Of a stretch of 11,812 nt of DNA, positions 2-1,615 are shown piece by piece; position 1 is the stretch's first letter, and every line of letters starts with the position of its first letter. The position numbers and the translations under genes are program-made. Below the pieces are notes generated by a model, which searched no databases, was not told where the DNA came from, and saw nothing but the letters and a program-made list of their open reading frames with translations. Source of the DNA: Bathymodiolus azoricus thioautotrophic gill symbiont (GTDB taxonomy: Bacteria > Pseudomonadota > Gammaproteobacteria > PS1 > Pseudothioglobaceae); the NCBI RefSeq assembly GCF_001298715.1, contig NZ_CDSC02000481.1:1-11812 (forward strand), given 5' to 3'.

Positions 2-388
2 TTATAAAGTATTTATTCGGAGATCAATGGATCTTTGTAGGTTTTGAATCCAGCCATTATAATTGGTATGAATTTTTGAGCCATCATAGTTTAAGTTTGT
101 ACTATCTTTGTATTTGATTGAATAGCTATTTTTATCATATGTAATATCAATAACTGCAAGATGCGTTCTAAGGGTTAGCTTTCCTACTATATGTTTGTCA
201 GATTTTTTTGTCATCACCCAGCCAAGACCAGTGCCAGCTCTAACAATTGCTCTTTCAATATTTGCAACAGAATGATTACCAGAGATCATAGCAGAATCAA
301 CATCTCTAACTAGTGCTGTCCCACAACCAGCTAATAATGCTAAAGAGACTATAATAATTGATATTTTTCCAAGTAAATTAAATTTCAT
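2..388 (-). CDS. Small predicted outer-membrane or periplasmic lipoprotein
   Basis: A complete 128-residue frame on the minus strand, with its stop at the window edge. The N-terminus is a clear lipoprotein signal: Lys at residues 2 and 8, a hydrophobic stretch from about 9 to 19, then a lipobox L-A-G-C with the lipidated Cys at residue 22. The start is supported by an AAGGA ribosome site on the minus strand (plus positions 394-398), five bases before the ATG. The mature part has a Gly-Trp near residue 56, a segment rich in Thr/His/Val (about 70-80), a Tyr/Asp-rich stretch and a C-terminal YNGWIQNL motif. This resembles a widespread proteobacterial family of roughly 110-130 residue lipoproteins of unknown function; I recognise the pattern but cannot give a role. 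It is transcribed away from the polyene cluster and need not belong to it. It is not the DUF3261 lipoprotein of APE clusters as far as I can tell. Confidence 0.85.
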   Translation of the reverse strand: MKFNLLGKISIIIVSLALLAGCGTALVRDVDSAMISGNHSVANIERAIVRAGTGLGWVMTKKSDKHIVGKLTLRTHLAVIDITYDKNSYSIKYKDSTNLNYDGSKIHTNYNGWIQNLQRSIDLRINTL

Positions 389-410: not shown

Positions 411-440
411 TTAATAAAGTGTTACCTCTAAAATTATAAT
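411..440 (+). promoter_or_regulatory. Candidate native promoter of the polyene operon
   Basis: A perfect -10 hexamer TATAAT lies at 435-440, with TTAATA (four of six to TTGACA) at 411-416, an 18-base spacer apart. The -10 sits in the near-symmetric word ATTATAAT (433-440), so the minus strand also reads TATAAT, towards the lipoprotein, but with no good -35. The site lies in the short divergent region between the lipoprotein and the insertion element. Before the insertion it would have been about 30 bases upstream of the glycosyltransferase start. AT-rich DNA gives chance matches, so this is tentative. Confidence 0.3.
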
Positions 441-468: not shown

Positions 469-473
469 AAATG
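469..473. repeat. Left target-site duplication AAATG
   Basis: This five-base direct repeat directly abuts the left inverted repeat of the element at 474-863. The same five bases abut the right inverted repeat at 864-868. The match is exact and starts immediately at both element edges, which is the footprint of a transposase-mediated insertion. Confidence 0.8.
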
Positions 474-492
474 CCCAAATCCAAAAATAGAA
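474..492 (+). repeat. Left terminal inverted repeat of the insertion element
   Basis: This 19-base end pairs with 845-863 with one mismatch (fourth base from the tip: A here, C in the other end). Its tip touches the AAATG duplication. An imperfect direct copy of its outer part, with one base deleted and one changed, lies at 496-510, 22 bases further in, and could be a second transposase-binding site. Confidence 0.82.
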
Positions 493-771
493 CCACCCAA
501 CCCAAAAATACCAATCAAAATCCTAAAAAATCACTCCATTCAAGTCTTGCATCCATAAAAATACAGACAATACCCCCAATTTGATAAGATCAGCACAAAT
601 TATTCGATATTTTGGATCGTTTAGGTTTTTCAGGTGTGTAATGGTATGTGCAGTAGCAAGTAGCCCAATGCGAGCGGTTAAAAGTTCGTTGGTAGAGGAC
701 AGTTTGTAGTTTAAAATGTTCATAAACGCATAAAGTTTGGTTGGTTAATGAGGGGCTTGGTTGCCTTTGAT

Positions 772-799
772 TTTCACCTAATGGGTGAAACTGTTTTTT
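772..799 (+). terminator. Hairpin plus T-run inside the element; possible plus-strand terminator
   Basis: TTTCACC (772-778) pairs with GGTGAAA (784-790) as a perfect 7-bp stem with a five-base loop. Three bases later comes a run of six T (794-799). This has the shape of a rho-independent terminator reading rightwards, although the stem is short and only three of seven pairs are G-C. It lies between the native upstream region and the glycosyltransferase, so if active it would reduce transcription entering the operon. Confidence 0.4.
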
Positions 800-844
800 G
801 GTTGAAATCATTATACCAGTTGGGGTTTGTGTGTTTTTTTTGAT

Positions 845-863
845 TTCTATTTTTGGATTGGGG
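845..863 (-). repeat. Right terminal inverted repeat of the insertion element
   Basis: This is the inverted partner of 474-492, with 18 of 19 bases identical. Its tip, GGGG on the plus strand (860-863), lies two bases before the ATG at 866. That is too close to act as a normal ribosome-binding site. Confidence 0.82.
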
Positions 864-868
864 AAATG
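864..868. repeat. Right target-site duplication AAATG, containing a start codon
   Basis: This is an exact copy of 469-473. Its last three bases (866-868) are the ATG of the glycosyltransferase gene, so the duplication rebuilt the start codon after insertion. Confidence 0.8.
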
Positions 869-1615
869 ATTAAAGAAAATTTTACTATTGTAATACCCGC
901 CTACAATGAAGAAGCAACCATTCGTGATATCGTTAAAAGGGCTTTAAAAAAATGTAAAAGCGTTATTGTGGTTGACGATGGATCTACTGACAATACTGTT
1001 AAAGAATTAAACAATTTGCCCATTCATTTGATCAAGCACACAACCAATAAAGGCAAAGCTATTAGTTTGTGGGATGGATTTCAACTTGCTTTAAAAAACA
1101 AAAATGATTTTATTATTACCCTTGATGGAGACGATCAGCATGCACCAGAGGATGTTGATTTATTGATTAACAAAAGGAAAGAACACAAAAAACACATTAT
1201 TATTGGTGCTCGTTTGGCAGACAAAGACTCTATCCCTGCAAAAAGATATTATGCTAATAAAATTGCCAATTTCTGGATTGCATGGGCTGCTGGTTATCCT
1301 ATCTCTGATAGTCAATCAGGGTTTCGGCTTTATCCTTCAATTCTTTTTAAAAACTTAAAAATTTCAACCTCAAAAAACAGTGGCTTTGTTTTTGAAAGTG
1401 AAGTTATTATCAAGGCTGCTCAAGTAGGAATATATAGCTATTCTGTCCCTATTCCTGCTGTTTATAAAGAAGATGCTAGACCCAGCCATTTTCAAGGTGT
1501 AAGAGATATAACATTGATTACTTTAATGGTGGGAAAGTCCCTTATATCAAGAGGGATGTATCCCCAAGGTTTATATAGATCTGTCATTAAGCCTATGATA
1601 TTAAATATTTTTTAA
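866..1615 (+). CDS. GT2 family glycosyltransferase (dolichyl-phosphate mannose synthase-like)
   Basis: The protein has 249 residues from the ATG at 866 and is a soluble GT-A fold enzyme expected at the inner face of the cytoplasmic membrane. Visible motifs are PAYNEE (11-16), the nucleotide-binding VVDDGSTDNT (35-44), the metal-binding LDGDDQH (86-92), SDSQSGFRL (147-155) and the acidic FESE (176-179). This set is typical of polyprenyl-phosphate sugar transferases and of the glycosyltransferase half of ApeJ-type proteins. In common APE clusters that half is fused to an acyltransferase; here it stands alone at the head of the operon. I chose ATG 866 because family members start just before the first beta strand and because this ATG lies in the target duplication outside the inserted element. 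An in-frame TTG at 827 would add 13 element-encoded residues. The gene's native upstream sequence has been displaced by the insertion. The sugar donor and acceptor are unknown. Confidence 0.88.
   Translation: MIKENFTIVIPAYNEEATIRDIVKRALKKCKSVIVVDDGSTDNTVKELNNLPIHLIKHTTNKGKAISLWDGFQLALKNKNDFIITLDGDDQHAPEDVDLLINKRKEHKKHIIIGARLADKDSIPAKRYYANKIANFWIAWAAGYPISDSQSGFRLYPSILFKNLKISTSKNSGFVFESEVIIKAAQVGIYSYSVPIPAVYKEDARPSHFQGVRDITLITLMVGKSLISRGMYPQGLYRSVIKPMILNIF

Follow-up and report, generated by a model that had tools for sequence, protein, structure and literature searches.

A 390-bp deletion derivative of an IS1380-family element on the start codon of a glycosyltransferase gene in the thioautotrophic gill symbiont of Bathymodiolus azoricus

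Insertion sequences (IS) of the IS1380 family, which are described by the NCBIfam model NF033539 and include the studied members ISEcp1 and ISPme1, duplicate 4 or 5 bp of target DNA. Outward promoters are described for both of these members in an excerpt of PMC9330008, where ISPme1 is also described as having mobilised DNA at its 3′ end. Excerpts of two further papers give 58 IS for one B. thermophilus symbiont genome (PMC9789115) and 13 to 23 transposases for Bathymodiolus symbionts (PMC4612132). In this study, a 390-bp element was analysed that stands on the start codon of a family 2 glycosyltransferase gene, the first gene of an operon, in the thioautotrophic gill symbiont of B. azoricus; the window, that is, the whole stretch of DNA analysed, comprises 11,812 nucleotides of contig NZ_CDSC02000481.1. 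A literature search that covered titles and the starts of abstracts, with most subscription journals outside it, gave, among the matches listed, no paper dealing with the insertion described here or with derivatives of IS1380 elements in these symbionts. The best explanation as a whole, in which we have high confidence, is that the 390 bp are an internal-deletion derivative of an IS1380-family element that transposed onto the start codon.

Compared with the IS1380 family, the element had the ends of ~1.7-kb copies, a 5-bp target duplication and, elsewhere in the genome, transposase pieces beside the same ends; it differed in its length of 390 bp, in the loss of the transposase gene, and in a conserved promoter-like box that faces away from the neighbouring operon. 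The ISPme1 end that carries mobilised DNA corresponds to the end facing a lipoprotein-like gene here. With miniature inverted-repeat transposable elements (MITEs) and other transposase-less IS derivatives the element shared the short length, the inverted ends, the target duplication and, presumably, a transposase supplied in trans, but it gave no sign of multiplication.

The element is an IS1380-family IS from which most of the central part, and with it almost the whole transposase gene, has been lost. Approximately 165 bp on its left and 225 bp on its right matched opposite ends of ~1.7-kb elements in relatives, and both parts also matched IS ends in the symbiont's own genome. At the junction, the likely parental sequences were CAGGTGTG/CTTAAG, or nearly so, on the left and ATGTGT/TAATGG on the right, joined as CAGGTGTG-TAATGG in the window. 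With 3 or fewer mismatches allowed, the junction pattern was matched in 2 of the 12 genomes of the genus; the only match in the own genome was the window itself, which was exact, and 10 other genus genomes had none. The second genome, G008, had 3 mismatches (G008:C13:22797-22820; 21 bases exact, 3 mismatches in the 23-base pattern), and this match was rejected as a chance one. The matched bases are located at the 3′ end of a frame of 362 aa that precedes gyrB-like sequence, the two genes being taken as recF and gyrB, and no further strong similarity to the element was seen there.

The translated remnant of the transposase gene was 85% identical to residues 1-33 of P0009, a protein of 445 aa named as IS1380 family by its sources. 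In the own genome, IS1380 transposase pieces adjoined the same ends at L005:2-391, L002:374-784 and L002:2-367. These partial pieces scored 47.3, 75.8 and 63.4 bits, respectively, with NF033539, the cut-off of which is 180 bits; the transposase frame of L057, a full-length relative, and P0009 scored over it (214.5 and 268.3 bits). Both L002 pieces matched Pfam DDE_Tnp_1_4, one of them under the cut-off, and the L005 piece matched no Pfam family. A protein search with the L057 frame matched 1,029 of 2,145 candidate proteins, the best match being from the Bathymodiolus thermophilus symbiont. A 66-aa frame at 523-723 on the minus strand was rejected as a gene: it joins transposase codons to end sequence across the junction and matched no Pfam or NCBIfam family. 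Scanning the window with Rfam gave 0 matches at gathering scores.

The ends of the element and its target duplication had been read from the letters alone in the preliminary description, as 19-base inverted ends matching at 18 of 19 positions and an exact duplication of AAATG. Both were borne out by the sequence, by a repeat finder, which returned the same inverted pair, and by simulation. In 500 first-order Markov sequences of 1,468 bases each, matching the length of the real sequence, 5-bp direct repeats 100-900 bases apart and flanking 19-base inverted ends were counted: the simulated means were 0, 0.012 and 2.69 for at least 18, 15 and 12 matching end bases, and the real sequence gave 1, 1 and 4, respectively. 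Five-base duplications, a length within the range of the family, were found both in the window (AAATG) and around the element at L057:332-2008 (CTTAT). The insertion onto the start codon with a 5-bp duplication is thus a confirmed observation. The start codon is intact in the downstream copy of AAATG because the ATG lies inside the duplicated target, and the coding sequence survives, as had been claimed; an ATG was present at the equivalent place in L038, L039 and L040. Coordinates of the features are given in Table 1.

Table 1. Features of the element and its surroundings in the window
Feature	Position	Strand	Remark
Internal-deletion derivative of an IS1380-family insertion sequence, 390 bp	474..863	+	both parts match IS ends
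Target duplication, left copy AAATG (original start-codon context)	469..473	+	exact match to 864-868
Target duplication, right copy AAATG	864..868	+	contains the present ATG of the glycosyltransferase gene (866-868)
Left terminal inverted repeat, on the 3′ side of the lost transposase gene	474..492	+	reads CCCAAATCCAAAAATAGAA
Right terminal inverted repeat, on the 5′ side of the lost transposase gene	845..863	-	TTCTATTTTTGGATTGGGG
Deletion junction	638..639	.	left-end sequence ...CAGGTGTG fused to right-end TAATGG...
Transposase gene remnant, approximately the first 28 codons (639-723)	625..723	-	match slightly crosses the junction
Candidate -10 of the native operon promoter, a conserved TATAAT; upstream of the element since the insertion	435..440	+	
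Promoter-like site TTGGTA-17-TAAAAT within the element, before the hairpin	689..717	+	9/12 matches
Terminator-like hairpin followed by a T-run, toward the glycosyltransferase gene	772..790	+	stem family-conserved
Leftward TATAAT in TGGTATAAT, right end; probable old transposase promoter	810..815	-	ATTATA on the plus strand in 12/16 right ends
Family 2 glycosyltransferase gene, intact in its coding sequence and first in the operon	866..1615	+	
Divergent small lipoprotein-like gene, upstream of the element	2..388	-	adjoins the glycosyltransferase gene in L080, L081, L039 and L040

The single mismatch between the two ends is a normal property of the family and not decay. Position 4 was A (CCCAAATCC) in the window's left end and in the ten left ends compared with it, and C or T in all 16 right ends, 12 of which read exactly CCC[C/T]AATCC. 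This set of 16 comprised matches that start within the first 70 of the last 165 bases of the element and reach base 163, with identical rows merged, and excludes, among others, L012 to L020, L061 and L062. Relative to the window's left end, the ends of L056 had 0 and 1 mismatches and those of L057 had 0 and 3. The preliminary description had taken the nearly intact ends as a sign of a recent event, an argument that is weak given this family property; what stands is an age limit from comparison with relatives, given below.

The suggested check for further copies was positive: searching the own genome, a draft of 1.86 Mb in 515 contigs, gave 20 places matching the 390 bases, of which the window alone was full-length and contained the deletion junction. 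The other 19 matched only part of the element, either 35 to 165 bases of its left or 47 to 229 of its right, and 9 of them ended within 20 bases of a contig edge. Read inward, the right parts run into a leftward gene, and P0009 was partially matched at 9 places in the genome, of which 3 contain an internal stop. Many near-identical short copies, as expected of a MITE, were not found in this draft, from which copies may have been lost or in which they may have been collapsed. Because the junction was found once in the own draft, the element is, as far as the draft shows, a single deletion derivative and neither a MITE family nor a proliferated family of its own.

Beyond the own genome, any match to the element was found in 10 of 58 genomes (own included), and NF033539 was matched in 5 of the 12 genus genomes (own included), over its cut-off in 1; as a control, the same model search was positive in 6 of 14 unrelated genomes. 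Two relatives were full-length. That at L057 (G011) has ends at 332 and 2008, a length of 1,677 bp and CTTAT on both sides; that at L056 (G003) has ends at 342 and 2059 and a length of 1,718 bp, and matching 5-bp flanks were not found around it. Both transposase genes are interrupted, by one internal stop in L057 and as two separate frames in L056. L062 (G022), with 69% identity over 1-380, was considered as a second short derivative and rejected by eye, its right end being degraded and without a flanking duplication.

Two observations were made on other copies in the own genome. L002:2-784 (G000:C145) is another IS1380 copy with a different internal deletion, running from residues 1-31 directly to residue 144 onward; by eye, its breakpoint is within about 10 bases of the right-hand side of the junction in the window, a place that may be prone to deletion. 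A left end at L010:133 and a right end at L013:1501, on contigs C190 and C165, share the flank TAATT and may belong to one copy that was broken up in assembly.

With the glycosyltransferase as protein query, 11 loci were found in named genomes, the closest being L038 (BCLUESOX, 93% identity), L040 (79%) and L039 (BHECKSOX, 78%). Among the genus genomes 6 of 12 were matched, and strongly 3 (own, G006 and G007); G006 was identical to L038 across the 3,000 bases compared. Four relatives were aligned at the locus, namely L038, L039, L040 (joined flanks) and G007; L041 and L042 were searched for the element only, and L043 to L048 were outside the comparison. The empty site suggested as a check was found: in 3 of the 4 aligned relatives (L039, L040 and G007) nothing was inserted between the TATAAT and the start region, and L041 and L042 had no match to 474-863. 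The fourth, L038, was 94% identical in DNA to the window over 866-1700 and 91% over 1-452. The IS1380 element was not found at its locus, and a different element of 161 bp was found instead. Because this BCLUESOX relative is without the element, insertion took place, almost certainly, after the split from the BCLUESOX lineage. In G007 (L066/L081, C1 ~1298748-1299477) the operon's first gene is matched in two frames that meet near residue 27; relative to the other genomes it has a gap of 11 bases, and an ATG is lacking at the usual start. The remaining operon genes match over nearly full length.

The 161-bp miniature element of L038 (1986-2146) has TCTTA on both sides (1981-2151) and 20-base inverted ends, and lies between the same TATAAT and ATG, with 12 bases separating the second TCTTA from the ATG. 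It resembles the window's element in being an independent insertion with a 5-bp duplication in this same interval, and differs in its sequence, its ends and its membership of a multicopy family. At least 64 matches to that family were found in the own genome and at least 79 in G006 (40 first-look candidates scored in each); all 12 genus genomes were matched, some with very few. Its end pattern, with 1 mismatch allowed, occurred 32 times in G000, 174 times in G011 and 283 times in G006. The chance of finding this element in a given 77-bp stretch is ~0.5% by a rough, post hoc estimate that takes the 283 end matches in G006 as ~140 copies in 2.4 Mb, spread evenly, and rises if intergenic DNA is favoured. 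A second independent insertion at the same promoter is notable and is no proof of selection.

The TATAAT upstream of the element was kept in all 4 aligned relatives, in agreement with the earlier proposal that the element displaced the upstream region together with a candidate -10. The element now separates this box from the ATG, leaving the gene some 390 bases further from its own promoter. Almost certainly, the element transposed into a single AAATG by means of a transposase that another element provided. RNA started at the native TATAAT would now have to cross 390 bases containing the terminator-like hairpin and two pairable ends beside the start codon, and the first gene, perhaps the operon, would be expressed less; the surviving leftward box would be directed across the element to the divergent lipoprotein-like gene instead. 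The element may in this way act as a one-way barrier that partly insulates the operon from its native promoter, an effect predicted from the sequence and about equally likely to hold or to fail.

Conservation of the hairpin across the family argues for such a barrier. Across the 16 right ends, 122 of 128 stem cells were paired, and a run of six T followed in 15. On the 11 distinct rows, 94.3% of 88 cells were paired, a value that fell to 57% or less when the partners were slid. Two pairs were changed on both sides, with as many in 8 of 500 shuffles, and the covariation score was reached by 4 of 500. The wobble cells were G-U in the plus-strand RNA 8 times and in the minus-strand RNA 2 times, a soft hint, the rows being related, that the plus transcript may be the strand kept paired. 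In the minimum-energy fold of 447-900, bases 474-492 paired with 845-862, and ATG bases 867 and 868 were also paired.

A number of results weigh against this explanation. The hairpin is short (-8.2 kcal/mol, 3 G-C pairs), its minus-strand RNA folds nearly as well (-7.4), its pair types were no more than those of shuffles (449 of 500), and one terminator-like site is approximately the number expected by chance (0.6 ± 0.9). Folding of the region overall was no better than in shuffles (z -0.23, 37 of 100), and the promoter scan listed no minus-strand promoter at the leftward TATAAT. A full-length open transposase was not found in the own draft by comparison with P0009. Inside the element a promoter-like site (689-717) lies on the operon's strand, and outward promoters are described in the family, as noted above. 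The operon is probably still used, judging from its open and constrained genes: all 14 genes compared were stop-free in the sister genome, and the ratio of nonsynonymous to synonymous substitution rates (dN/dS) against the sister was 0.08-0.27 for 13 operon genes and 0.52 for the lipoprotein-like gene. This constraint mostly reflects the time before insertion.

An alternative is a neutral insertion, in which transcription from the native promoter would pass through the element, the untranslated leader would be longer, and restoration of the ATG would suffice. The restored start codon, the intact and constrained genes, and a weak hairpin of a kind occurring near chance level fit it, as does GGGG (860-863) 2 bases before the ATG, but a spacing of 2 bases is short for a ribosome-binding site. 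Maintenance of the hairpin and T-run across the family and the pairing of both ends beside the start codon are also at odds with it, and we regard a neutral insertion as possible, if rather doubtful. An activating insertion, with an outward promoter provided to the operon by the right part of the element or by a hybrid with flanking DNA, would accord with the described promoters of ISEcp1 and ISPme1, with the direction of 689-717 and with the intact, constrained genes. Here the operon lies on the 5′ side of the transposase, the TATAAT conserved in right ends of the family faces the other way, and the scan of the region gave 2 sites against 2.2 expected, which places 689-717 at chance level; that site also precedes the hairpin, and no plus-strand site was listed between the hairpin and the ATG. 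Activation is unlikely. A wrong joining of repeat ends in assembly is very improbable: the draft genome is fragmented into 515 contigs, and contig edges are near 9 of the 19 other matching places, but both flanks follow the order of the relatives (lipoprotein-like gene, TATAAT, glycosyltransferase gene), and an exact duplication at both edges with a junction found once is not expected from a misjoin.

Downstream of the deletion derivative, the order of genes was glycosyltransferase, DUF218 protein, acyl carrier protein, a further protein, AMP-ligase, a FabZ-like piece and acyltransferase, followed by a LolA-like protein, an MMPL protein, ketoacyl synthase, two genes without NCBIfam match, and FabG. 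A further protein search with the glycosyltransferase, made to find names, gave 6,866 matches among 7,998 scored candidates, which came without genomic context. The flexirubin-cluster models FlxB and LolA2 scored below their cut-offs in the operon; together with the gene order, which we take to be like that of aryl-polyene/flexirubin clusters, these scores suggest an operon of aryl-polyene/flexirubin type. The divergent gene matched no Pfam family and is presumably lipoprotein-like from its signal-like start.

As a deletion derivative of a known IS family the element itself is ordinary; its placement and the independent insertion in the sister genome lend it modest interest. A broader and improbable idea is that the interval from promoter to start of this aryl-polyene-like operon is repeatedly rewired by transposons in mussel symbionts. 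Selection in the host would then favour lower or re-wired expression of the first gene or of the operon, and the right end of the IS1380 element would serve as a one-way valve for transcription. The idea is based on two sister lineages having two unrelated elements no more than ~20 bp apart between the same TATAAT and ATG, and on a third relative with a broken first gene. The locus provides a clean natural case of a transposon on a start codon in which the coding sequence was saved by the element's own target duplication, with relatives without the element for comparison. The two independent insertions, one in each sister genome and both at the same promoter, also make it a small testable case of mobile elements that may alter the expression of a surface-pigment-type operon in symbionts.
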